Virus record (IMG/VR): IMGVR_UViG_3300030328_004248
Coordinates: 27,688 to 64,714 of that record
Strand: one strand, 5' to 3'
From: a virus
Length of the DNA: 37,027 nucleotides
Both the position numbers and the translations under genes were made by a program. Below the pieces are notes generated by a model. That model ran no database searches and was not told the origin of the DNA. It was given only the letters and a program-made list of their open reading frames with translations. Below, in pieces: positions 3,001-28,928 of the stretch; positions within the stretch are counted from its first letter, which is position 1, and every line of letters begins with the position of its first letter.

Positions 3001-4542
3001 ATCCTTGATAAATGCTGATGGTTTGAAACCATCTGCACCTAATGCTTTAGCACCAAAGTTAGAGTTAGAGTTTGTGAGTGAAATATCAGCACCTGACTCT
3101 GTTCTAAACTGATGAGCATAACCAACAGCAAATGTAGATACTACCTGTAATACAGCTTCATTTGTTGCTTTGATGTGGAACGATTCCCACTCTGGTTTAT
3201 AATTTGCTAAACCATCAGTGTGTAATGTTACTGAAGTACCTAGAGTTGCTTGATCCTGCCAAGAACCAGATGTTGTATTATACTTTACGAATGCATTATC
3301 ATCTTTCTGTAGTCCAATACCTGTGTACTGAGCACAGACCATGGATTTGAATCCTGTTGACTTGCTACCATCAGCAAGCATACCACACATACCATAAACT
3401 GATCTCAATGAACAGTTGAATATGTAAGGTGATGCAGAAGTTACACTATCACTCTCAACTATAACTGTTGGAGATAAACCAGTCAGTGATGGAGTCGCTG
3501 TTGACGTTGGAGCTGCTGGTAAATTATAGGTGAAAGAAGTAGTACTAAGAACCTGTGCTACAACATGACTACCATCATAATCAGTGTTACTTACTCCATT
3601 GACAATAACAGGAGTATCAACGTTTAGATTATGTTCTGTCTTTGTTACAACAGTAACTACCGAAGTCGCTGTACTAGCAGACGGATTAGCACCTGAATAT
3701 ATGTCATCAATTTCCAGATCACCCAACCTAGAAACTGCACCAACAATCCTGGTTTCGTCAATGACCTTTTGGAAGTCATCATTAGCAGGATAGTTAGGTA
3801 ATGCTCTGCCGCTATTAGTACCGTAAGCAAGCGTAAGCTTAGCATAGTACATGTCGAGGTCTGTGTTCCCCTTCCCCGATACCGTGTTCTGCCCATCAGC
3901 AAATTCAAAACAAGTTAGCTTATGGTGTGAAAAATTAGGAGCATATACATTGCTCGTATAATCTTTGAAAATCCTATCTGCAGGATCACCATCAAATAAA
4001 CTAAAATTAAAGAAGAAACAACCACCAGTTACTTTGAATATGGCAGCGTTTGCAATATTATCGTTATCTGGTTGTGGAATATATTTTGGTTTTATCTTCG
4101 TCTTTCTAAGATCTTGACCAATAATAGATGTACCACGAGGTAGTATTACACCACCAGTAATAGAGTTGAAGTGATACAGTACATTATCTGGATCTTGTAT
4201 ATCAAACTTAGTTCCTATTGATAATTCACTTATAGATGCAGCAGTACCATTAGCGTCAGTTATATTACCAGAGGTATCAATCTGAAGTCCTGGACGGTTG
4301 TCTATGTAATGAGTGCCTGGAGACACCAATATTGTTGTTTTATCAAACTTATCATTATCTTTACCTAACTGATATGAAAATCTAGCAGACTCAATCAGTG
4401 CTCTTTGAATTGTCTTGAACGGACGAGTTCTGGAGTTACCAGTATTACTAACGTCATCAGTTGCATCAAGTTCTTCTGGGTTGACGTATATTACGTTACC
4501 CTGAACATTCTTGAGGAAATTTTCAAGTCTACTTAATGGCAT
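1..4542 (-). CDS. Large virion structural protein, N-terminal 1514 residues (partial)
   Basis: This reading frame stays open from an ATG at 4542 to the left edge with no stop, so at least 1514 residues are encoded and the C-terminus lies outside the window. The N-terminus (MPLSRLENFLKNVQGN) is followed at about residues 40-85 by a stretch resembling the start of pectate-lyase-type beta-helices (RPFKTIQRALIESA, then TILVSPGTHYIDN). The rest is rich in Thr, Ser, Gly, Asn and Val, with repeated beta-type segments and GSGYEVGD-like turns similar to those at the gp5 C-terminus. Cyanomyoviruses carry such giant tail or baseplate-associated proteins; I recognise the type but cannot assign a T4 number. 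A consensus late promoter sits 33 bases upstream, which fits a virion protein made late. It could be a tail-fibre-like adhesin or a baseplate appendage protein. Confidence 0.8.
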   Translation of the reverse strand, partial: MPLSRLENFLKNVQGNVIYVNPEELDATDDVSNTGNSRTRPFKTIQRALIESARFSYQLGKDNDKFDKTTILVSPGTHYIDNRPGLQIDTSGNITDANGTAASISELSIGTKFDIQDPDNVLYHFNSITGGVILPRGTSIIGQDLRKTKIKPKYIPQPDNDNIANAAIFKVTGGCFFFNFSLFDGDPADRIFKDYTSNVYAPNFSHHKLTCFEFADGQNTVSGKGNTDLDMYYAKLTLAYGTNSGRALPNYPANDDFQKVIDETRIVGAVSRLGDLEIDDIYSGANPSASTATSVVTVVTKTEHNLNVDTPVIVNGVSNTDYDGSHVVAQVLSTTSFTYNLPAAPTSTATPSLTGLSPTVIVESDSVTSASPYIFNCSLRSVYGMCGMLADGSKSTGFKSMVCAQYTGIGLQKDDNAFVKYNTTSGSWQDQATLGTSVTLHTDGLANYKPEWESFHIKATNEAVLQVVSTFAVGYAHQFRTESGADISLTNSNSNFGAKALGADGFKPSAFIKDDKGYITAIVPPKKNFNKNEDVNWKSIDVQNTIGVSTDTRLYLDGYTVKDTLPIKTASGYTVGNKVGDKLFCSMNNIVYGADVLMPGPNSDPDTWASGNKSVFVGSNAGINSITANVITLEDVHKFNAGEKVRFYSDTGSLPDGITNDTDYFVITAGLDNDKIKIATTFNNATASSNITTLNNLGGRLRVVSTVDGKDPGDPGHPIQFDSSRGWYVNVGAGNSLRSAIVSNQNSITDKTSNTYIVRTPDTRKDLEKIYRMRFVIPDDSTVAAPPSNGFTLQESSTFIDDTYYKNDNTALTSVANLRTSNAIVDATWNSTAKTGIITAQGSHRLSAGNLVEISRLKSGQNTNGTDNSGYNGMFEVLSITDDRTFSIGINTNPGGISTITTNIPYTSHDYSIVGSGRTFAPFFTKRSFGTSYQIFNNEEVQKFSKGVQDGIYDLTVLGYLAQPGVTPFSTTSNYFAQDINSLRPKQDPDNRNDDPIAAKTYARRDKIGIVATNDPKNSITKETINSFVEKSNIGTGVTAASESSGTLTLDMSHEHGFNGLSGITIASNGVGYGTSSGDAEFYYSARLTGGNGTGATADITVAANGTITSVDLNHPGSGYEVGDTLVIKGVPFRPSGSTTDATVTVSTIDNAQGQVVQVIGVSSEGYNGLYRLTNIENAKRIAYTGTVSNTAGAGGFVYHVGIATAINNILHDRISGIATVTLASDVGLRKGDQIVISGGPSVYQGTHYVTDRVGYGSSLKVNIGKTASQPTYSSGGIAHGGGISGRGYNQTIPIYGGTTTTLNNDLTSTSTSINLADLSMLRRGDYLQIEDEIVRITNKNKTTVLRGALGTNATSHPRNAAAIKIKALPVEGRRNSLIRASGHTFEYVGFGPGNYSTAMPQVQDRILDDKEQLLAQATQTRGGLVVYTAMNDKGEFYVGRKKIDALTGEEVSTIDEFDTTSVSSATAQLPSTAAFDDITVNQNFYSNGNTDVQDIKLRGGRGGNVGKQVFVGI

Positions 4543-7470: not shown

Positions 7471-9455
7471 TAGTAAATCCTCGCACAGTCAACTACTCTA
7501 ATCACTCTAGCCTCAGGAACAACTGGATCAGTATAATCTTCTCTCTTAGTAAACTTAATAATTGGTCTAATAACAGCACCATTACCAGTCGTACTTTCAA
7601 CAAATAATGCTGGAACCTTAGTTAATCCCAAATCAATCCTACCAGTAGCACCTGTAATTCTACCATCTTCTATGATAGGTGTCAATGTCTGACCACTATT
7701 ACTTACAATTAGATCACCTTCTTGATAACCTGCCCCAGTAGAAACTACTTGAATGTTCTCAACTTCTCCTATAACATCTACACCTTCTGAATCACCAGCA
7801 CCAAGATAACCACCACCAGTATTAGTGACAATAATATTTGTAATCTGACCATCCTCGACAACAGGAGTACCAGTAGCACCCCTACCATTATCACAATCAT
7901 CTATAATAGCAACATAAGGTGCTTCAGTATAACCAACACCCAAATTCTTCATATTAGCACCAACTACCTGACCTGTTTCATTTATAACTGCATTAGCAAC
8001 AGCACCTATACCACCGCCACCAAATATTTCTATTCTAGGTGGTCCACAATCCTTAGTCTCAGTATTACATGGTCCAGCTAATGCTCCTACAGGACCAAGA
8101 CCTCCACCACCTCCTAAAATATTAGGGAACATACCATTTATCATTCCATCAATATTACCAACTAATCCACTCAATCCACCAGCTAAACCAAGAACCCTAT
8201 TGAAATCTAAAAGTGCCTTAGGATCAGGTCCAACATTTGTAATAACATCATTAGGATTAGGTTCACATTCCATACCTTCACAACTGAATAACGCTAAACC
8301 AGTCTGCTGCATATCAAGTGCATCAGCCATCATCGAAGAGAATGCTGGTAGTTGAATACCTGCTAATGCACCAATAGCAGCAAGTGGTCCACCAATAAGA
8401 TTTTGAATCTTATCTGTTATACTTGCCATCAAACCACCCATAAATTGTTCTGCTGCACAAAGTGGAAAATTAGCTAACTTACCAAGCATTCCTTTCAAGA
8501 AATTAGCAATCATATTCTTGAGTCCATTTATAACATTCTCTATCAAACAATAAATGGAATCTTTCTGCTTTTTGATCTCAAGGTTTTTGACTAGATGATC
8601 TGGCTCTAAGAAACTAACTGATTCATCAACACCTTTGTTTATTTGTGTGAATAATCCTTTTCTAGCACCTCTAACAGAACCAGAAATTCCACCAGCCATC
8701 TTACTAGAAGTCTTGTCAACCATCTTATCCATGTTGACAGTTTTATTTGTAACAGGATCTACATAACCCTCTTTAGTCTTTTTAAGTTTTGAGGTCTTAC
8801 CCATAAATCCTTGAAGTTCTTTGGTAGAATCACCCACTCCTGCCTTAGGAGGATCACATTTCTGTGCTACCTCAACTTCTTGAGTCTCATTATCATAATG
8901 CTTGATTATAGTACCTTTTGCAGTACTAGATTCATCACGTACTGTACTATTACTATCAGGAACACCACCAGAAGCTAAATTTGGTTCATCTTTTTGCAGT
9001 CTAATATTATCACCTTTCTCTAGCTTTTCATCAAAAGAAAATGGTTTGAAATTACTAGTACCCTGTGATACTACTTTTTTATATTCTTCTACATCAGCAA
9101 TATTATAATTGGCATAAAAAGCACCAACAACCACAGGTTGCTGACCTTCTTCCCCATCAAGGAAGAATCCAAAAACCATCTCACCCCCTTGAAGGGCAAA
9201 ACTAGTACCTTGATAATTGTTACCAGCACCGAACTGAGGTGATACTAAAAAATGAGCCCATGGTAAGTCATCATCAGATATACCGTCTGCTCCAGCAGGA
9301 TGATATCCTAGAATCCTTACCTTTGCCCTAAAACCATTATCAAAGTTCTGATTGTTTTTATCACGCCAAGATTTATCAGGAGCCACTTGTCCAAGAAACC
9401 AGTGGAAACCATCTTTACCGAGAAAATCTATATGTGAATGGCGTGATTCAAGCAT
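7470..9455 (-). CDS. 5: gp5-like baseplate hub protein
   Basis: This 661-residue protein starts with a gp5-type OB-fold domain at residues 1-120 (FHWFLGQVAPDKSWRD, then FRAKVRILGYHPAG, then DDLPWAHFLVSPQFGAGN, and VFGFFLDGEEGQQPVVVGAF). It continues with a Lys/Thr-rich linker, a hydrophobic Gly/Ala/Leu-rich middle (about 305-400) and a C-terminal region with GVGYTEAPYV, TGGGYLGAGD and TGAGYQEGDL repeats. T4 gp5 (575 aa) carries a lysozyme domain after the OB fold; I see no T4-lysozyme catalytic pattern here and no octapeptide beta-helix at the end. The gene lies directly after gp27-like and the His-rich gene, as expected for the hub, and is coupled to both neighbours by TAATG overlaps. The role as the central membrane-piercing hub is well supported; cell-wall hydrolysis is not. 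Confidence 0.8.
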   Translation of the reverse strand: MLESRHSHIDFLGKDGFHWFLGQVAPDKSWRDKNNQNFDNGFRAKVRILGYHPAGADGISDDDLPWAHFLVSPQFGAGNNYQGTSFALQGGEMVFGFFLDGEEGQQPVVVGAFYANYNIADVEEYKKVVSQGTSNFKPFSFDEKLEKGDNIRLQKDEPNLASGGVPDSNSTVRDESSTAKGTIIKHYDNETQEVEVAQKCDPPKAGVGDSTKELQGFMGKTSKLKKTKEGYVDPVTNKTVNMDKMVDKTSSKMAGGISGSVRGARKGLFTQINKGVDESVSFLEPDHLVKNLEIKKQKDSIYCLIENVINGLKNMIANFLKGMLGKLANFPLCAAEQFMGGLMASITDKIQNLIGGPLAAIGALAGIQLPAFSSMMADALDMQQTGLALFSCEGMECEPNPNDVITNVGPDPKALLDFNRVLGLAGGLSGLVGNIDGMINGMFPNILGGGGGLGPVGALAGPCNTETKDCGPPRIEIFGGGGIGAVANAVINETGQVVGANMKNLGVGYTEAPYVAIIDDCDNGRGATGTPVVEDGQITNIIVTNTGGGYLGAGDSEGVDVIGEVENIQVVSTGAGYQEGDLIVSNSGQTLTPIIEDGRITGATGRIDLGLTKVPALFVESTTGNGAVIRPIIKFTKREDYTDPVVPEARVIRVVDCARIY

Positions 9456-9724
9456 TAGTCGTCATACACTCTACATTCTAATGAGTCTGGATGATTATCA
9501 CAATACACTTCTAAGTGCTGATCCTCATGGCGTGTGTGCCAGTCATTGATCTTAGCACCACCAGGATTCTCTTCATTCTCTTCATGAGCATGAAAAGCAT
9601 CATTGTGCATCTTCAAATCTTCTTCACTATATTCAATCATACCATGATTGACATGCTCTTTATGATCCTTAGGATCAATATAAACCTCATGTTCGAGGTC
9701 ATGTTCTGGAGTTTTAGTGGTCAT
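9455..9724 (-). CDS. His-rich acidic small protein between gp27 and gp5
   Basis: The gene encodes 89 residues, of which 12 are histidines (positions 8, 12, 21, 24, 27, 40, 45, 47, 63, 66, 70 and 78), with many Asp/Glu and two Cys near the end (VYCDNHPDSLECR). There is no hydrophobic segment. The spacing of His pairs (HKEHVNH, HAHEEN, WHTRHEDQH) suggests metal binding. It starts two bases after the gp27-like stop and its own stop overlaps the gp5 start (TAATG), so it is made together with the hub. I do not recognise a family with a known role. A metal-binding hub or spike accessory, or an assembly factor, is inference. Confidence 0.65.
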   Translation of the reverse strand: MTTKTPEHDLEHEVYIDPKDHKEHVNHGMIEYSEEDLKMHNDAFHAHEENEENPGGAKINDWHTRHEDQHLEVYCDNHPDSLECRVYDD

Positions 9725-9725
9725 G

Positions 9726-11012
9726 TTACTTATTCTTTTGGAAAGTGTCTCTTACGAGTGTGAGTCCAGTGAAATCACCTTGGGGATTACCAAATTCATG
9801 GGCTAATCTGGCAATCATATATTTACCAGATTGTGCATTCTTACCACGTGGATTATTTAGATCAGGAAATTCAAGTTCTAACATATTACCTGCTCTCAAT
9901 GATAAGTTCATTGGTACGGTAATGTTTAGAGTCTGAGCAAATACACTAGAATATCGTGAATTAGATTGTGCTTGGTAAGTTGCCTGATCCTGTGGTTTGG
10001 CAGCTCCTGAACCAGAAACATCAGTAGTTGTAGTTCCTTTATCAATAGTACCTAAAATTATCCTAGAATAGGAATCTTTATAATCGGGAGGTAGTACTGC
10101 TTCTTTGTTTGCTTTCTCTTGGTGTTTTTGTGCCTTATCATATGAAAATTCATAAAAAGTCACTTTTCTGGTAAGGACATCATAATACCAATTAGCAGTT
10201 TTGTAAGCTCCAGATCTTAGTTTTTTTAGTATATCATGACTTTCTTTCCAAACTGGTTGAGAAGCAAGCATGAAATTATTCTTAGGATCCATTCCTGTCT
10301 TATAAGTAGTCATCAGATATTTTTCAACTGGATCACTAGCAAATAACTTATCAGTACTCCTAAAATTCCATCCATCTTGTGTTTCAAAGAATAAAAATCC
10401 ACCACTCCCACTACTAGGACTATCACCATCAACACTAGATGGTATAGACTTAGGACACAAATCACTTATAACTTTAAAAGGTCTTCGGTAATTACCATAG
10501 AACTCAGATGAGTTCTTCGTAGTATCAAAGTTCTTACCCATCATCTTATTACCAGGAACTTGTAACTTACTACTCAAAATATTTTTTACAGTACTTGTAA
10601 TAGAACCCGTTTTCTTTTCCCAAACCCGTGTAATATGATTATTGATAGCAGCTTTAGTTTCTAAAGTAAGGACATATGCTTCTCTTTTATTATCAGCAAC
10701 ATGATTACTAATATTTGTAATTACTAATGGGTCATAACCAGAACCTAGATCAAACTTCAATGGTTTTTCTTGACTAGGATGAGTTATCTCTACACGTACA
10801 GGAGATCCACTTCTAATAGGTAGTTGATTATAAAACCCATGAGTATCTACACAAACTATCTCAACATGTATAGAAGGGTCAATAACATCCTCATAGTATT
10901 TCAAACTATTTAATTGACCCATCATATTCAAAAAATCACCACCCCTACTGGTAGGAATGATATCAAATCTCTTTAGTTTATGACCTTTGGTCCAAACTAC
11001 ATCTCTATTCAT
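9726..11012 (-). CDS. 27: gp27-like baseplate hub subunit
   Basis: This 428-residue protein is similar in plan to T4 gp27 (391 aa) and to VgrG/gpD hub proteins. An N-terminal beta-barrel domain (RFDIIPTSRGGDFLNMMGQL, then VEIVCVDTHG) is followed by a domain containing GSGYDPLVITNISN and the EAYVLTLETKAAINNHI strand-helix. The central region starts KVISDLCPKSIPSS, and a C-terminal strand set begins LNITVPMNLSLRAGNMLELE. It is encoded directly before the His-rich protein and gp5. Its ATG overlaps the tape-measure stop (TAATG), placing it in one operon with the tape measure. In T4, gp27 forms the trimeric torus that holds gp5 and contacts the first tail-tube ring. Confidence 0.75.
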   Translation of the reverse strand: MNRDVVWTKGHKLKRFDIIPTSRGGDFLNMMGQLNSLKYYEDVIDPSIHVEIVCVDTHGFYNQLPIRSGSPVRVEITHPSQEKPLKFDLGSGYDPLVITNISNHVADNKREAYVLTLETKAAINNHITRVWEKKTGSITSTVKNILSSKLQVPGNKMMGKNFDTTKNSSEFYGNYRRPFKVISDLCPKSIPSSVDGDSPSSGSGGFLFFETQDGWNFRSTDKLFASDPVEKYLMTTYKTGMDPKNNFMLASQPVWKESHDILKKLRSGAYKTANWYYDVLTRKVTFYEFSYDKAQKHQEKANKEAVLPPDYKDSYSRIILGTIDKGTTTTDVSGSGAAKPQDQATYQAQSNSRYSSVFAQTLNITVPMNLSLRAGNMLELEFPDLNNPRGKNAQSGKYMIARLAHEFGNPQGDFTGLTLVRDTFQKNK

Positions 11013-12652
11013 TATGTGGTAAGTAGTTGTGCCATCTGAGCATATTTAGTAGCAACAGCGTAAGAATTTGGTCCACTTTTCCTGCTACCACTTGCACCTG
11101 CAATATTATTTACATGTGGAATATAAACCGTATCTGCACCATTGTTTATCACAAGAACTTCTGATGCAGGTAAATCTGCATTAGAAACAATATAACCATC
11201 CTCTTCAGGAATGAAAAGTTCTTCACCAATTTCACCCACAATGTATGGTTTACCTGCTATAACAGGACCACCATCAGCAAGTTTTGAAGTTGGTCCTAGA
11301 TTCATAACCTCTGACCAATTTAGACCAGATTCATTAGGAATATTATCCTTATTGATTCTATAATATCTCTTTTTTATTGGATTGATTTTTAAATTCCCAC
11401 TTGTTAAAGGAGAATCTTTAGATAAAAAACCTCTCATTTTAGCAGGATCTACCTTTACAGTCCTAGTCATAGGACTAAACCTTTTTAAGTTAGTTGTGGT
11501 AACTTTTACTTGACCTGCCTTTATCTTCAATCCACCCCTAAAAAGCAATAACCTCAAAGTTCTGAGTTTTCCAACTATTGTTGCGATTATACCTGGAGTT
11601 GCAGTTGCAGCTGCAGCTTCACCTGCAAAAGTAGGTTCAGCAACAGCAGCAGCCCAAATCATCGAAAGTAAACTTACTGCTCCCAAAACTTCCATACCAA
11701 CTCGTAGAAATTGCAATGCATTCCGATACCAACGATTTTTTGGTTTTGGAACAGATATACCAAAAGGAAATCTAATTCTCTCTCGTTCATCTTTAGATCT
11801 ACCACCAATTGCTTCGTCAGAATCAGATAAAGCAAACTTATCTAAAACTCTATCAAAATCATCTAAAGCATGAGAAAATGAACTTTTAGTTGTCATTGCT
11901 ATAACTCTTTTCTCTTCCATTTTCCTTCTACCATCAGCACCAGTAATAAAATCTGCTATACCACTACCTATACCTGATCCCAATATACTACCACCCACAC
12001 CACCAATAAATCCACCAATTGCAGCACCAGGAGCAGCACCTACTCCACCAAATAATGCACCAATTGATCCACCGACAACAGCACCTGCTTTTGCACCTGC
12101 AGCACCACCTGCCAATGCACCTGCTAGTCCACCACCAGCACCAACACCTGCCTGTAAATTAGTTTGACCCTCTGCCTTACGACCCATAAAGTCCAGACCA
12201 GTAGTTAGAACTGCTAAAGGACCAATACCCCCTCTAAGACCTTTAAGACCTGGTACTCTAAAACCTCTAGTACCTTTAGCTCCTCTAAGAAGACCACTTG
12301 TAGGTCTTATATTATTAGAAGGTAATATTGGTCCTTTAGGTTTAAATGGGTTCCATCCTCCACCACCTTTTGGTCCACCTCCAAAAGATCTTAGTAATCT
12401 AGATCCTCCACCAAGACCAAGAATACCTAGTAATCCACCAACAGCACCTGAACCACTATCCTTTTTTCCAGCTTGATTACTAAGAGCAAGAAGTGTTGCT
12501 CTTCTTTCTTCAACTAATTTCTTTCTAGTTCGTAAAGATTTTTTCTCAAATACTCTTTGCAAAGAAACAGAACTCTGAATCTCATTTCGTAAGATAGAAG
12601 AACTTCTAGTAGTCTTTCTAGATATTGCCAGTAGAGATCTTTCAATACTCAT
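11012..12652 (-). CDS. Tail tape-measure-like protein (C-terminal signature)
   Basis: This 546-residue protein has a basic N-terminus (SRKTTRSSSILRNEIQ) and a long Gly/Ala-rich hydrophobic region (about 140-240, with GAGGGLAGALAGGAAGAKAG). A second hydrophobic helix lies at about 325-350. At residues 458-495 is a segment with DGGPVIAGKPYIVGEIGEEL followed by FIPEEDGYIVS. That GGPV..G.PY.VGE.G.E.F.P motif is highly typical of the C-terminal end of tail tape-measure proteins of long-tailed phages. T4 gp29 (590 aa) plays this role. It overlaps the 499-aa gene upstream (ATGA) and gp27-like downstream (TAATG). The tape-measure motif is what I see; splitting of the role with the 499-aa protein is inference. 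Confidence 0.65.
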   Translation of the reverse strand: MSIERSLLAISRKTTRSSSILRNEIQSSVSLQRVFEKKSLRTRKKLVEERRATLLALSNQAGKKDSGSGAVGGLLGILGLGGGSRLLRSFGGGPKGGGGWNPFKPKGPILPSNNIRPTSGLLRGAKGTRGFRVPGLKGLRGGIGPLAVLTTGLDFMGRKAEGQTNLQAGVGAGGGLAGALAGGAAGAKAGAVVGGSIGALFGGVGAAPGAAIGGFIGGVGGSILGSGIGSGIADFITGADGRRKMEEKRVIAMTTKSSFSHALDDFDRVLDKFALSDSDEAIGGRSKDERERIRFPFGISVPKPKNRWYRNALQFLRVGMEVLGAVSLLSMIWAAAVAEPTFAGEAAAATATPGIIATIVGKLRTLRLLLFRGGLKIKAGQVKVTTTNLKRFSPMTRTVKVDPAKMRGFLSKDSPLTSGNLKINPIKKRYYRINKDNIPNESGLNWSEVMNLGPTSKLADGGPVIAGKPYIVGEIGEELFIPEEDGYIVSNADLPASEVLVINNGADTVYIPHVNNIAGASGSRKSGPNSYAVATKYAQMAQLLTT

Positions 12653-14148
12653 GGTGTTGTGAATGCAGCATAAGTGTTAAGTGATGATGCATAATCAAAC
12701 TTATCATAAGCACCACCAGAATCTGTAAACTCAGTAGCAACAAACGCACTTGCTGGTGCAGACTCATATCCAGAAGGTGATGAAGGCATTTGTTGAGTTA
12801 TACCTTCATTTTCAAAAACATTGACAGTTGGAGTCTTACTTCCACTTGTAGAAGCTACATTTTGTTTTTTCTTAGGTAAAAATAACTTTTGGAACCAATT
12901 TTTTTCTGATTTCTCACCTTTATTCTCTAATAATCCTGTGATATCAATATCAGAGAAACCTTTCTCTGGATCTATCTCCAATATACTTCCAATAGATTCC
13001 TTTGAATCAGTATTTTTACCAGAAAGCATAGAAGTTAAATTATTAACAGCAGCTGTATTTGAAGCAAGATCAACATTGTCCTTACCCATCACCCTCGACT
13101 GATCACCATTACGTTGAATGGTTGATTTATCATCCGAATTGCCATCCATCATCAATCCATAACCTCGATTATCAAAATCAAATAAGTCACCTGTGAAAAA
13201 ATCAGCAGTTCCAGCAAGACCTCTCATAAAACCTTTCGGTTTTCCTTTTTCAGGATCCCCTTTAAGTGTTTTCTGAATAGTACTATTCTGTGCGGAAATA
13301 TTATTCAATTGACCTACCGCATTAGCACTTGGAAGTTCACCAGTAAGCATTTCATCCATATCTTGATCTAAATCTTGATCTAAACCTGGGGTAACTGTTG
13401 ATATTTTACTATCCTTTTTACCAATAGATCTATCTAATATTCCTTCAAATCTAGTCAGTTGACCTCTAAATCTACCAACATCATTCTCATTTATAGTCTG
13501 CTTTCGACCTACTTCTTGACTAACAAGTTCTCCTCTTCGTCGATCCTGTCCAGAAGCTGCAGCCCGATTACCCAGTAATAAAGTAGCAGCAAGAGCTGCT
13601 GTCATCAATAAAGGATTCTTGAATTTTCCAACACCACCCGTAACACCAACTCCACCACCCATAGCAGTACTATTTTTTGGTAATATTCCTCTAAGTGCTA
13701 GTAAACCTACTACCCCAGAAGCAATCTCAGGTAAAAGTGCTCCCAATGCAAGCCCACCTGCCTGAAAACCTCCACCTATATTACCTCTACTAAATTCAAG
13801 TGCTGAAAGACCACCTAAAATTGTTGCTATATCGGATCTTGCTCCAAATAAAGCTGCAGTACGAATACTATTTAAATTCTCCGAATCCTTTTTAAGTATC
13901 TTTTGCTCTTCTCTAAAATATTTTTGTCTTTCTCTTATATCTGATCTAATCTCACGTTGCATAGCAACCATATTATTATTAATCTGCTCCATCTGCAGAA
14001 TAATACGGCCTAAACTTCTAATCTCTGGACGTGAAACCTGTACGTTATCCTCAGCAGTCTTTAATATCCTTTCATAAGCAGCATCCATCCTACGTTCCAT
14101 TGGAATCATAGGTGTATTTGATTGTACGTTACTACCAGGCGTTTGCAT
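12649..14148 (-). CDS. Virion structural protein, possible N-terminal partner of the tape measure
   Basis: The gene encodes 499 residues. Residues about 20-95 are strongly helical and heptad-like (RSLGRIILQMEQINNNMVAM, then REIRSDIRERQKYFREEQKI). Hydrophobic Gly/Ala/Leu segments follow at about 115-160 and 175-200, then a long polar, Asp/Ser-rich region and a disordered Ser/Pro/Thr-rich end. A coiled coil plus membrane-like helices is the composition of tape-measure proteins. The gene lies immediately after the gp26 and 65-aa chaperone-like pair and overlaps the next gene, which carries the tape-measure C-terminal motif, by four bases. I infer that it is either the N-terminal half of a split tape measure or a gp28/gp29-like hub protein. 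No T4 homologue is certain. Confidence 0.55.
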   Translation of the reverse strand: MQTPGSNVQSNTPMIPMERRMDAAYERILKTAEDNVQVSRPEIRSLGRIILQMEQINNNMVAMQREIRSDIRERQKYFREEQKILKKDSENLNSIRTAALFGARSDIATILGGLSALEFSRGNIGGGFQAGGLALGALLPEIASGVVGLLALRGILPKNSTAMGGGVGVTGGVGKFKNPLLMTAALAATLLLGNRAAASGQDRRRGELVSQEVGRKQTINENDVGRFRGQLTRFEGILDRSIGKKDSKISTVTPGLDQDLDQDMDEMLTGELPSANAVGQLNNISAQNSTIQKTLKGDPEKGKPKGFMRGLAGTADFFTGDLFDFDNRGYGLMMDGNSDDKSTIQRNGDQSRVMGKDNVDLASNTAAVNNLTSMLSGKNTDSKESIGSILEIDPEKGFSDIDITGLLENKGEKSEKNWFQKLFLPKKKQNVASTSGSKTPTVNVFENEGITQQMPSSPSGYESAPASAFVATEFTDSGGAYDKFDYASSLNTYAAFTTP

Positions 14149-14329
14149 GTGCTGCTTCTGCTTGTTGCTGTTCTAACTTTTGTTTCTCTAGGTACTTAAT
14201 AAGAAAATTCACATAAACTTCTTTTTCCCAAGGTATCATATTCTCTATATCACTCAATGTCCATTTATGATACTGCATCAAGGAAAAATTAGTTTCCATA
14301 ACAGCATCAATACTGGTATGATATAGCAT
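14132..14329 (-). CDS. Small tail/baseplate assembly protein, probable frameshift extension of gp26
   Basis: The ORF encodes 65 residues: MLYHTSIDAVMETNFSLMQY, then HKWTLSDIENMIPWEKEVYV and a charged Gln/Glu/Ala-rich tail. The W-(S/T)-x-x-(D/E)-I/L-E-x-(M/L)-(I/L)-P-x-E-x-x-(I/V)-Y pattern is similar to the second-frame (T) part of phage tail assembly chaperones. Its ATG overlaps the gp26 stop codon as TAATG, so it can be made by re-initiation. A T_TTT_TTC heptamer two codons before that stop would also shift ribosomes into this frame and give a 309-residue fusion (242 gp26 residues, then Arg-Ile, then the 65 residues). The position directly ahead of the tape-measure genes fits a gpG/gpGT-type role (inference). 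Confidence 0.7.
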   Translation of the reverse strand: MLYHTSIDAVMETNFSLMQYHKWTLSDIENMIPWEKEVYVNFLIKYLEKQKLEQQQAEAAHANAW

Positions 14330-15060
14330 TATGCGAAAAAATTTGATAGTCCCTCAACTAATACTTCAGATTCGACCTTTGTATTTGGATTAGTAACAGT
14401 ACCCTTATACTGTAACTTTGGCATAGTCTCAAAGAAAGTTTCAACTAATTTGAACTGAGAAGAATTAAGTTGTTCTATGAACTTGAGTAATTCTTTCTTA
14501 GTACAATCACTTGAAGACCAAGCTTCCTCTTGAGTATAAATGGTGTCAATAGATTCGATAACTGTATTGAATACTTGATCAATCCTATCTTCACTTTTAT
14601 CCAAATCAGAGAAAGTAAAATTACTATTCAAGAATTGTTTCATTGAAGGGTATTTCATCTTCATTGAGATGCCTTCACCTAAATCAATAACATCATTATG
14701 CTCATCAGGTACTACTAATTTGATATCTGAAAGAGCAATATTCAATGGAACCTTAGTTTGATTGTCATCTTGACAAGTAACTAATAATTCAACAGACTCA
14801 CCAATAGATTTTCCTCTAATATTCAAAAACAAATATTCTAATTCAAAACTTGGAAGATCTTCAACTTTTACTCCACGAGTAATGATACATGACTTCAATA
14901 CCTCCTTGAGGGTGGCAGCAATATCAGCATCATTTCCATTTTCTAAAGCGATCAATAAAACCTTTTCCTCTTTTACAAGAAACGGTCTATATTTGACAGT
15001 TTTATTAGTAGAAATAAGTTTCAGTTCAAAAACAGGTGCGTTGACCTTAGGTAATGGCAT
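14329..15060 (-). CDS. 26: gp26-like baseplate/tail assembly protein
   Basis: This 243-residue protein belongs to the T4 gp26-type baseplate family by its N-terminal pattern: MPLPKVNAPVFELKLISTNK, then YRPFLVKEEKVLLIALENG. The P(F/Y)..KEEK.LL.A.E block is the hallmark. T4 gp26 is 208 residues and is needed for baseplate hub assembly. The middle is helical (DADIAATLKEVLKSCI) and the end is charged and helical (ELLKFIEQLNSSQFKLVETF), finishing SNFFA. The last codons form the slippery heptamer that can fuse it to the 65-codon ORF. It is the second gene of the unit beginning with gp54-like. No Shine-Dalgarno is evident, and a 47-base gap separates it from gp54. Confidence 0.75.
   Translation of the reverse strand: MPLPKVNAPVFELKLISTNKTVKYRPFLVKEEKVLLIALENGNDADIAATLKEVLKSCIITRGVKVEDLPSFELEYLFLNIRGKSIGESVELLVTCQDDNQTKVPLNIALSDIKLVVPDEHNDVIDLGEGISMKMKYPSMKQFLNSNFTFSDLDKSEDRIDQVFNTVIESIDTIYTQEEAWSSSDCTKKELLKFIEQLNSSQFKLVETFFETMPKLQYKGTVTNPNTKVESEVLVEGLSNFFA
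14335..14341 (-). promoter_or_regulatory. Candidate programmed -1 frameshift site T_TTT_TTC
   Basis: On the minus strand, in the gp26 reading frame, the last codons are AAT TTT TTC GCA TAA. The heptamer T_TTT_TTC is a classical X_XXY_YYZ slippery site in the correct phase. A -1 slip gives CGC ATA ATG CTA, which is exactly the frame of the 65-codon ORF that overlaps the gp26 stop. I did not find a clear downstream pseudoknot, but the stop codon lies one codon after the site and could itself promote pausing. Confidence 0.6.
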
Positions 15061-15107: not shown

Positions 15108-16052
15108 TCAAGAAGGACCAGGTCCAATATCAAATTCATAGAATTGACTATCATCCGCACCCTCATAATTGATTTCATAATCAGTAACTACTCCATCAGA
15201 AATAATATCATTTAAACTCTTAGTTTCTCTTCCTGGGAAAATAGCATTTTCAGATGTTGGTCCACCTCCAGATTTGGAAGTAGTTTTAGTATATTTCACT
15301 GTTGAAGAAGCGAGTCTAGAACCTATAGGTGATGAATTCAATTTCCATCCAGTTCTGGAAGTTCTACCAATATGATAGTAATCGTATTTGAATGTAACAG
15401 TCGTTTTGATCAGTTCTCCTTTACCATATGCTAATGGTGCAGCAACAATATTAACAGGAAATGCATTTTCTAGTTTATATGTGATACTACTCGGTATCTG
15501 CTGATTCCACTTACTTGTTCTATTCAATCTACTACTTTGATTGACAGTATCTTTACTAAATGCTGTTATTTCAATAGGAACTTTATAACTTTTAGGATAT
15601 TGCATTCTTTTAAATTCACCACCTTTTTCAAAAGCTCTAGTTGGAGAAATAAATTCTACCCAAGCATTAAAAACATCATTAGTATAATAATCTTTCTGAG
15701 AATACCATGTTAACATAACATCAGGAAATCTCCTGAAAGTAGCATAATTCTGACTAACACCTTGTCTCAATCCATCAATAGAAGTAGTTTGAACCTGGGA
15801 TCCAGGTAAAACAGCCTCAGAACAAAACAAACCAAGATAATCACCAGGATTAGTAAGTCCACCACGTTCATTATAAAACCCACTACCATTGATAAATCTC
15901 CTAAGAGAATTAGCGTTACCAAAATTTATAGTCACATCATAATTATTACTAATAGCTGGGGAAATATTACCAAACTTAGTCGAAGTCTCATATAATTCTG
16001 CTGTAGGCAGATAATGTCTACCCTGTCTAAAGGTATTTGGATCCTGTGCCAT
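15108..16052 (-). CDS. 54: gp54-like baseplate tail-tube initiator protein
   Basis: This 314-residue protein begins MAQDPNTFRQGRHYLPTAEL and contains NNYDVTINFGNANSLRRFIN, then DYLGLFCSEAVLPGSQVQT. A strand set follows (FRRFPDVMLTWYSQKDYYT, then FNAWVEFISPTRAF), and later ITYKLENAFPVNIVAAPLAY followed by TVTFKYDYYHIGRT. The pattern of two strand sheets with an A.P(L/I).Y turn near the end is that of tail-tube-fold proteins. T4 gp54 and gp48 share this fold and cap the baseplate. gp48 is identified separately on the other strand, so gp54 is the best match. It starts the minus-strand hub operon. The promoter region, shared with the divergent gp4 gene, is only 33 bases and has no perfect TATAAATA. 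Confidence 0.65.
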   Translation of the reverse strand: MAQDPNTFRQGRHYLPTAELYETSTKFGNISPAISNNYDVTINFGNANSLRRFINGSGFYNERGGLTNPGDYLGLFCSEAVLPGSQVQTTSIDGLRQGVSQNYATFRRFPDVMLTWYSQKDYYTNDVFNAWVEFISPTRAFEKGGEFKRMQYPKSYKVPIEITAFSKDTVNQSSRLNRTSKWNQQIPSSITYKLENAFPVNIVAAPLAYGKGELIKTTVTFKYDYYHIGRTSRTGWKLNSSPIGSRLASSTVKYTKTTSKSGGGPTSENAIFPGRETKSLNDIISDGVVTDYEINYEGADDSQFYEFDIGPGPS

Positions 16053-26755: not shown

Positions 26756-27542
26756 GGGTTGTTGCGAGTGATTTATTTATTGAGTCCTGAATAGCAGCAC
26801 TAAAGTGTAATGGTTTAGCAGTACACATGTTACATACATTCTCAGGTATTCTACTATTAGAACAGAACTTTGTCAATTCTTTATCACTACAGTCAACAGA
26901 TATTCCATCAACAATATACTCCTGCCATTCAGAGTCATCACTCTGCCCTGTAACAGACAGTAACTCCCTTAGGAATGCAGTGTTAGGACACTTCCAAAGT
27001 CTACCATTATATAACTGAGCATTAGGACAGGAGCATACCTGAAAACTCTTAGCAATTCTATTCTGATTGTATGGATATACTTTACCGTCTCGTTTTCTTA
27101 TTGAATCAAACCATCTATCCTTGCCTGTATGATGTTCGGTGACCAGTACCTTAGGATGATTGAACTTCTTTATTATATCTACTACCTCTGGCAGGTGAAT
27201 ACTTATCCTAAGGAACACTCTTTGATCTTCTAGAACTCTCTTGATCCAGTCTTCATTCTGTAAGAGAAGTAAGCCATTGGTATAAAGATAGACAGGAGAA
27301 TTAGTATATGATCTACATGCATTGACTATCTCCTCACATCTAGGATTGAGTAATGGTTCTCCACCTATGACAGAGACCCTACCAATATCTATACGTGGTA
27401 GTATAGTTTTGATGTCATCAATAAGAGCATCAGTGTCCAACTTACTACTTGGTGAGAAGTAATTACTAAAATGATTACATCCTTTACAAGATAGGTTACA
27501 ACCTATCGTTGCACTGATGTCAAGAATGTTCAAGCGTGGCAA
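26718..27542 (-). CDS. Radical SAM protein with auxiliary cysteine cluster (copy 2)
   Basis: This 274-residue protein has C15-x3-C19-x2-C22 (GCNLSCKGCNH), IGGEPLLNP at 59-67, and the same auxiliary Cys set as copy 1 (C170, C172, C185, C237, C240; CSCPNAQLYNGRLWKCP, then VCNMC). It lacks the 55-residue N-terminal extension of copy 1. The start is a TTG at 27542 with GGAG ten bases before it, inside the end of the carbamoyltransferase-like gene, to which it is coupled. Pairing with carbamoyltransferase genes suggests a shared substrate. The chemistry is unknown. Confidence 0.75.
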   Translation of the reverse strand: MPRLNILDISATIGCNLSCKGCNHFSNYFSPSSKLDTDALIDDIKTILPRIDIGRVSVIGGEPLLNPRCEEIVNACRSYTNSPVYLYTNGLLLLQNEDWIKRVLEDQRVFLRISIHLPEVVDIIKKFNHPKVLVTEHHTGKDRWFDSIRKRDGKVYPYNQNRIAKSFQVCSCPNAQLYNGRLWKCPNTAFLRELLSVTGQSDDSEWQEYIVDGISVDCSDKELTKFCSNSRIPENVCNMCTAKPLHFSAAIQDSINKSLATTHANISIKKSEDR

Positions 27543-28335
27543 GATAAGCAGCTCCTATTGAAGTTCCACCATCATGTGCAATTGGTTCAGCATATATCCT
27601 CTGATCCAATTCTTTACGTAGTAGATAGTTTACTTTACAGTTCAAGAAACATCCACCTGCAAGTATAAGATCTTTACCATCAGCATATTGTGCTAAGTCT
27701 AATGCTCTATACTCCCATGCTTGTTGTACATAACTTGCTTCCTTCTTACTACCATAAGCAGCAAGACCCATGATCTTACCTGCATCTTCAGCATCAAACC
27801 CATAGTTTACACAGGTCTGTTCAAACAACTTACCAATACCTATATCTTCTTGACTAAAATACTTCTTATGAAGTACCTTCCATGATGGCAATTCATACAC
27901 AGTCTCAATCTCTATGCCATCAGTAGTCTTAGAACCATTAGCATCTACAATGATAGCAACTGCCTCATCAAACCCTGAGTTCAACCAACCACATGCAGCA
28001 TGAAGTTTATGATGACACCCACGATAGTCTACAAACTTAGTGTTAGGATACTGTCTCCTTATAGAAGAGACATCCATTGATGATAGAAGAGACTTGGATC
28101 CTGTATCCCAGAAACAATCTGCTATAGCAATAACATCAGGAGTGCCGTCAATATACTCTAATAGTTTTCTGATAGTACTATCATACTTCTTCCTAGTAAT
28201 TCTTTCTGACTCTAAGTAGAACTCTATCTCACCACCCTTCATGATACAGATCGAACCATTGTTTGATAGGTTCAACCCTACAGCAAAAAAATTTGCCGAG
28301 TTTTTTTTCCCGTTTTCTGTGTTTTGAAAGGTCAT
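27520..28335 (-). CDS. Carbamoyltransferase N-terminal (kinase-like) subunit, copy 2
   Basis: This 271-residue protein matches the N-terminal domain of NodU/CmcH/TobZ carbamoyltransferases: VGLNLSNNGSICIMKGGEIE (19-38), FYLESERITRKK, H108-H109-x2-H112 (GCHHKLHAACGWLNSG), AIIVDANGS, AGKIMGLAAYGSK, LAGGCFLNCKVNYLL and DGGTSIGAAYLA. This domain makes carbamoyl-adenylate from carbamoyl phosphate and ATP. The 17-residue start MTFQNTENGKKNSANFF is not found in the paralogue at 29850 and is encoded by a dispersed repeat. The C-terminal domain is encoded as a separate gene just upstream (ATGA overlap). It is shorter than copy 1 by about 50 residues. Confidence 0.75.
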   Translation of the reverse strand: MTFQNTENGKKNSANFFAVGLNLSNNGSICIMKGGEIEFYLESERITRKKYDSTIRKLLEYIDGTPDVIAIADCFWDTGSKSLLSSMDVSSIRRQYPNTKFVDYRGCHHKLHAACGWLNSGFDEAVAIIVDANGSKTTDGIEIETVYELPSWKVLHKKYFSQEDIGIGKLFEQTCVNYGFDAEDAGKIMGLAAYGSKKEASYVQQAWEYRALDLAQYADGKDLILAGGCFLNCKVNYLLRKELDQRIYAEPIAHDGGTSIGAAYLATLEHS

Positions 28336-28348
28336 TTTCCCCTCAGTT
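28285..28348 (-). repeat. Imperfect ~60-bp dispersed repeat, copy B
   Basis: On the plus strand it reads A7, TTTGCCGAG, T8, CCCG, a spacer and CTCAGTT, aligned with copy A at 20134-20194. Here it spans the end of the carbamoyltransferase C-part gene and the first 17 codons of the following N-part gene, so it is translated. Confidence 0.6.
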
Positions 28349-28928
28349 TCTGGACTTCAGGAAAATACAAGTAGTCAATGCCACTACCCTCAAAAGTTTC
28401 GAGTGCATCCTCTGGTGTCTCTACTAATGGATCACCTGCCATGTTGAATGATGTATTGAATACTAAAGGTACTCCTGTTATCTGACAGAATGCATCGATC
28501 AACCTATAGTAATGTTCATTCTGATCTATAGTTACTGTCTGTATCCTACAAGTATGATCTACATGTAGTACAGCAGGTATCTTATCCCATGTATGTTCTA
28601 ATGCATCAACAGCATACATCATAAAGGGTGACTCATCTAACCCTGCCATGTCAAACCAATCATGTACATGAGATAACTTGACACTCGCTGCAAATGGTCT
28701 GAATGCCTCCCTCTTCTTTATCGTATTGACCTTATCTTTACCGTTAGGATCCCTTGGATCATATAGTATAGACCTGTTACCCAGTGCTCTTGGTCCTGCT
28801 TCTGATCTACCTTGGAATATTGCTACAACATTACGTTCCTCAATAAGTTTAGCCACATCCATAGAGGTACATGTATCTCCTTCAATATGTGACAGATCAT
28901 ACTTCGGTCCTAGGTAGAGTGTCTTCAT
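28332..28928 (-). CDS. Carbamoyltransferase C-terminal domain as a separate protein
   Basis: This 198-residue protein corresponds to the C-terminal domain (Carbam_trans_C) of NodU/TobZ-type O-carbamoyltransferases. It has VVAIFQGRSEAGPRALGNRS (34-53), ILYDPRDPNGKD, NTIKKREAFRPFAASV, then HYYRLIDAFCQITGVPLVFN and TSFNMAGDPLVETPEDAL. In known enzymes this domain (with the N-domain) binds the hydroxyl acceptor and transfers the carbamoyl group. Only one such C-part is in the window, against two N-parts. It overlaps purM by four bases upstream and N-part copy 2 downstream. Confidence 0.8.
   Translation of the reverse strand: MKTLYLGPKYDLSHIEGDTCTSMDVAKLIEERNVVAIFQGRSEAGPRALGNRSILYDPRDPNGKDKVNTIKKREAFRPFAASVKLSHVHDWFDMAGLDESPFMMYAVDALEHTWDKIPAVLHVDHTCRIQTVTIDQNEHYYRLIDAFCQITGVPLVFNTSFNMAGDPLVETPEDALETFEGSGIDYLYFPEVQKLRGK

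Follow-up and report, generated by a model that had tools for sequence, protein, structure and literature searches.

Most long-tailed phages make two tail-building chaperones by a programmed -1 frameshift. The tail assembly chaperones (TACs) of T4-like phages were reportedly identified by Vladimirov, Gautam and Davidson in 2022 (Virology 566:9-15, PMID 34826709), the genes named being, it is said, 26 and 51. A 2016 review reports wide conservation of the G-T frameshift among long-tailed phages, with T4 as the exception (PMC5009743). The portions of two later papers that cite Vladimirov et al. (2022) state that some T4-like phages have separate short and long TAC genes (PMC10885494) and that poly-T frameshift signals are known in the TAC-N genes of T4-like phages (PMC12846349). 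Part of the latter paper also describes the TAC of Vandenendeviridae phage Adele, in which a conserved -1 frame and a T-rich slip site likewise mark the end of TAC-N; Adele belongs to another phage family and uses another slip motif, an invariant GTTTTT (PMC12846349). Since the TAC genes of T4-like phages have already been identified (Vladimirov et al. 2022), the locus presented here is not new in kind; it is a further case of a described system, differing from the earlier ones in that it comes from an uncultured marine, cyanophage-like contig.

The window analysed, a 37,027-nucleotide stretch of viral DNA, carries on its minus strand a gp26 gene (14329..15060) encoding 243 residues, which match PF12322 (T4_baseplate, E 4e-64) and phrog_150 (E 1e-69). 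Overlapping its end in the -1 frame is an ORF (14132..14329, minus strand) of 65 codons counted from the ATG; it matches phrog_634, the baseplate hub assembly catalyst gp51 (E 2e-22). The latter ORF also matches the end of the phrog_150 profile weakly (E 0.036), hinting that some phrog_150 members are fused. The gp26 sequence ends, on the minus strand, with GAG GGA CTA TCA AAT TTT TTC GCA TAA TG. It thus contains the slippery heptamer T_TTT_TTC (14335..14341), in gp26 phase and one codon before the TAA stop (14329..14331), which overlaps the ATG of the gp51 ORF as TAATG. A second in-phase heptamer, A_AAT_TTT (14344-14338, minus strand), overlaps the first. After a -1 slip the predicted reading is ...N F F R I M L Y H..., continuing as MLYHTSID..., with the CGC at 14335-14333 read as Arg; the gp51 domain so entered would have 67 residues, and the predicted product (14132..15060, minus strand) 242 + 2 + 65 = 309. 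The initial annotation had noted the heptamer, its phase and a 309-residue fusion; the sequence bears out the first two, and the arithmetic and the open -1 frame agree with the third as a predicted product. In-phase X_XXY_YYZ heptamers were counted in 36 genes on the window's minus strand, 8771 codons altogether. Among the 44 found, only two, the one at the gp26 end and a G_GGA_AAA at 28341, are followed by a -1 frame that extends over 90 nt beyond the stop of the gene itself. The gp26/gp51 arrangement, a zero-frame heptamer lying inside the overlap of two ORFs, is far beyond chance.

We consider it highly probable (roughly 0.9) that gp26 and the 65-codon ORF form a single tail assembly chaperone gene pair, made by -1 frameshifting and having roles like those of lambda gpG and gpGT. 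Most ribosomes would stop at the gp26 stop codon, yielding the short, gpG-like form (TAC-N), which is gp26 itself. A minority would re-pair tRNA-Phe one base back on T_TTT_TTC and enter the -1 frame, yielding the gpGT-like gp26-gp51 fusion (TAC-NC). By analogy with lambda gpG/gpGT, both forms might coat the tape-measure protein, the gp51 extension serving to recruit tail-tube subunits. That slippage takes place, and at such a rate, is what we infer from the signal and the frame that follows it.

The neighbourhood has the layout expected of gpG/gpGT-type genes. Just upstream of gp26 lies a tail-tube-like gene of the gp54/gp19 type (15108..16052, minus strand; PF23849 Phage_TTP_2, E 9e-14; phrog_45 tail tube, E 4e-26). 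Downstream are two large minus-strand ORFs, both candidate tape-measure genes mainly by their position. The first (12649..14148), placed by position only, gave no significant family match in Pfam and PHROG searches; the second (11012..12652) matches tape-measure families phrog_794 (E 1e-7) and phrog_167 (E 8e-7), mostly in a Gly/Ala-rich stretch. The gene order thus agrees with the earlier statement that the pair sits ahead of the tape-measure genes, the latter remaining candidates. The relatives HTVC008M and phiM12 show the same layout in their annotations. The lambda slippery site differs from T_TTT_TTC, and gp26 is longer than lambda gpG. What the two systems would have in common is a minor -1 product made near the end of the short ORF, between the tail-tube gene and the tape measure (Levin 1993; Xu 2004, 2013, 2014, cited in PMC5009743); lambda V precedes G as the tail-tube-like gene precedes gp26. 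Elsewhere in the tail module, a small ORF (9455-9724, minus strand) that matches phrog_2603 over nearly its whole length also has a CP12 domain match (PF02672, E 2e-7) in its last 25 residues, CP12 being normally a Calvin-cycle regulator.

The conservation of the slip site was assessed at 261 loci where gp26 has sufficient sequence downstream of it; they came from the window, viral contigs and phage records and were grouped into 53 clusters at 70% protein identity. In 51 of the 53 clusters (257 of 261 loci) an in-phase T_TTT_TTY precedes a -1 frame that stays open for 56-73 codons, in cyanophages and in phages of Pelagibacter, Sinorhizobium, Agrobacterium, Stenotrophomonas, Pseudomonas, Desulfovibrio, Citrobacter, Vibrio and Aeromonas. 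Loss of the heptamer from relatives that keep the overlap had been named beforehand as the finding that would speak against frameshifting; heptamer, phase and -1 ORF are preserved together in these 51 clusters. The other two clusters, a phiMAM1-like one (Ackermannviridae) and that of Vibrio phage K393, are devoid of a standard X_XXY_YYZ heptamer and still have an open, gp51-like -1 frame; slippage might occur there on a different sequence, for instance G_GTT_TTC. The GTT TTC site of phiMAM1 resembles the slip site of T7 gene 10.

The codons at the site are constrained beyond what the amino acids require. The residue preceding the two phenylalanines can be Asn, Ser, Asp, Ala, Thr or His, and the third base of its codon is T in all 51 clusters. 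At the first Phe, each of the 51 clusters with this residue uses TTT, whereas TTT makes up 17-88% of codons in ten other Phe columns, the lowest value (17%) being that of the second Phe of the heptamer itself; the last heptamer codon is TTC in 42 clusters and TTT in nine. Other Phe-Phe pairs of gp26 take the T_TTT_TTY form in just 2 of 51 cases, against 51 of 51 at the heptamer site (Fisher p 7e-27, a value that ignores relatedness and is to be taken as strong rather than literal).

A different picture is obtained in phages that encode gp51 separately. In T4 the two genes are divergent, gp51 has 249 residues, and gp26 ends in GAG TTC TTT GAG TTA CTA TAA. Separate genes 26 and 51 were found in eight lineages: T4, PG7, Klebsiella 15882-6-3, MX01, Acinetobacter fHyAci03, RB49-like kvi, Aeromonas AhMtk13a and Morganella Rgz1, gp51 of the seven other than T4 having about 250 residues. 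The last 60 nt of gp26 contain no in-phase heptamer in any of these eight lineages. A profile of the predicted fusion, searched against a set of five proteins, aligns with T4 gp51 residues 15-246 (E 3e-15), and in a five-protein set its N-terminal and C-terminal halves each match T4 gp51 on their own, with E values of 6e-8 and 4e-7; in addition, T4 gp26 and T4 gp51 match one another by BLASTP (2e-6). That T4 gp51 is homologous to both halves of the fusion, taken with the gp26/gp51 match, suggests that T4 encodes both chaperone forms, apparently as separate genes. According to a review, T4 gp26 and gp51 are hub assembly chaperones, gp51 not being found in the final particle (PMC3004832). Together with the PF12322 and phrog_634 matches, the profile alignment equates the pair in the window with genes 26 and 51, the TAC genes of T4-like phages. 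The suggestion that gp26 and its short partner are a chaperone pair is supported and can be refined, in that the partner is the C-terminal domain of gp51.

Structural comparisons point weakly in the same direction. The AlphaFold2 model of gp26 (pLDDT 85) has the HK97 tail assembly chaperone 2ob9 as its first- and third-ranked Foldseek matches in the PDB, with an E value of 0.54 and TM scores of 0.37-0.43 by target length, values that are not significant and make the fold match a lead only (the solved 2ob9 chain has 107 residues). Searched against viral predicted structures, the model retrieves gp26 proteins first and gp51 proteins lower down. The gp51 domain is modelled as three predicted helices (pLDDT 68). 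At the sequence level, gp26 found no match among solved structures and gp51 chance-level matches only. The assignment of the pair as tape-measure chaperones, already suggested in the initial annotation, draws support from the order of the genes, from the similarity of T4 gp51 to the entire fusion and, weakly, from the fold.

How the -1 frame is entered was further examined by inspecting its start codons. In 27 of the 51 clusters the first ATG lies at codon 12 or later, although the residues ahead of it are conserved (SHxSLxxYYxxNFALMQHHKYS), so ATG initiation cannot explain these clusters. Some of them have an earlier GTG or TTG; in Desulfovibrio phage 7757 all three codons, ATG included, are missing from the -1 ORF. 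Judging from these start codons, frameshifting would be close to obligatory in relatives that have no ATG at the junction. One such relative is Aeromonas phage Aeh1, where an unannotated gp51 domain lies in the -1 frame (3214-3387 of the locus) with no nearby ATG. The situation is different in the window, whose gp51 ORF has its own ATG within TAATG and could therefore also be served by coupled initiation. A dual arrangement, with the slip making the fusion and the ATG, where present, also making some free gp51 domain, is compatible with the preferred reading and overlaps it; we judge it rather unlikely, though worth keeping in mind. The retention of TAATG in all 41 aligned sequences of the window's clade speaks in its favour, but the pentamer is partly forced by the -1 frame codons Arg-Ile-Met, and the absence of a junction ATG from many other clades means that a free gp51 domain is not generally needed.

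Translational coupling alone, giving a small separate gp51 from the ATG of TAATG with no frameshift, appears very improbable. The window and its near relatives do have an ATG at TAATG or TGATG, and in T4 an overlap of this type couples gene 26 with gene 25. However, there is no Shine-Dalgarno (SD) sequence at initiation distance from the gp51 ATG (TTTTTTCGCATAATG), the nearby GAGGG being 21 nt away from it, and the 27 clusters with no ATG before codon 12 are at odds with such a scheme. Coupling would also leave the invariant heptamer unexplained; the 26/25 junctions of T-even-type phages lack this heptamer. Nor does coupling account for T4 gp51 being a full fusion-like protein.

Frameshifting on T_TTT_TTC might be assisted by neighbouring elements. 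The GAGGG just mentioned (14351..14355, minus strand) lies 9 nt upstream of the heptamer and is a candidate 5′ stimulator; SD-like stimulators of -1 frameshifting are found 9-14 nt upstream of the slip site (review, PMC5009743). The Glu codon at this position is GAG in 24 of 33 clusters, as compared to 34% elsewhere in gp26 (p 6e-6), the highest GAG share of 17 Glu columns, and pairing to the anti-SD sequence peaks at the same offset. Downstream of the slip site, a predicted RNA structure (14240..14327, minus strand; folding z -3.65 for 14230-14334) is a weak candidate for a 3′ stimulator. A conserved structure was rejected for the time being in the window's clade, the 41-sequence alignment giving no consensus. 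Folding z-scores are lowest just after the heptamer, averaging -1.5 to -1.6 for 90-nt segments starting 0-12 nt from its first base, and range from -0.8 to +0.4 for segments clear of the heptamer region. In one relative clade (35 cyanophage sequences), an 11-bp hairpin located 5 nt beyond the heptamer is paired in 92% of cells, a percentage inflated by the choice of these sequences for their resemblance to the hairpin. It shows 18 double changes versus 4.1 in shuffles, none of 500 shuffles reaching 18. A single hairpin common to cyanophages was rejected, as across 98 sequences the share of paired cells does not exceed about 66% for any one stem. The parts of PMC10885494 and PMC12846349 that cite Vladimirov et al. 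(2022) make no mention of an SD-like stimulator or a covarying hairpin.

These elements bear on a further alternative, transcriptional slippage, whereby one T would be added to the T run in some mRNAs. One extra T gives the same fusion, and the run is at least seven T long in nine clusters. On the other hand, it usually has only six T, and runs used for slippage in bacteria comprise 9 As or Ts (review, PMC5009743); moreover, the SD-like element at 9-14 nt spacing and the hairpin covarying in one clade point to the ribosome. We regard this alternative as slightly less plausible still than coupling. Finally, the notion that Phe-Phe is kept for the protein, the heptamer following by chance or from amino-acid conservation, finds some ground in the near invariance of Phe-Phe in gp26 but is hardly credible, codon choice being invariant at positions free to change and Phe-Phe being encoded as TTC TTT or TTC TTC in several T-even-type phages that keep it.

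Ribosomal frameshifting at the gp26 end, which we favour, has implications for related phages. It is an even bet, in our view, that gp26/gp51 frameshifting represents the ancestral state of the T4 superfamily, helped by the SD-like GAGGG inside gp26, some 9 nt ahead of the slip site, and by lineage-specific hairpins about 5 nt downstream, whose sequence changes while pairing is kept, and that it was lost in T4-type phages once gp51 became a separate full-length gene. The short gp51 ORFs of cyanophages would be the frameshift-encoded end of a chaperone, explaining annotation oddities such as a cyanophage gp51 that seemed about 20% of normal length (PMC3037559). The gp51 listed as missing from Aeh1 (PMC3037559) would be the domain found in the -1 frame with no nearby ATG. 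The findings also bear on the exception that the review makes for T4 (PMC5009743): the signal is widespread among T4 relatives and absent where the two forms are separate genes. In hundreds of cyanophage records, the annotation of gp26 and gp51 should be changed to a single frameshifted TAC gene.

The other site retained by the scan of the window, G_GGA_AAA at 28341, was rejected as a second frameshift. It is present in only 37 of 80 relatives and therefore is probably the Shine-Dalgarno sequence of the next gene, placed before an ATGA overlap. A separate observation concerns the minus-strand interval 27520-28928, where two adjacent ORFs match different parts of phrog_1601, a Nol-like carbamoyltransferase family of 528 positions: the upstream ORF covers positions 355-526 and the downstream ORF positions 4-211. 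From these match positions, the carbamoyltransferase gene looks split, with its parts in reversed order.
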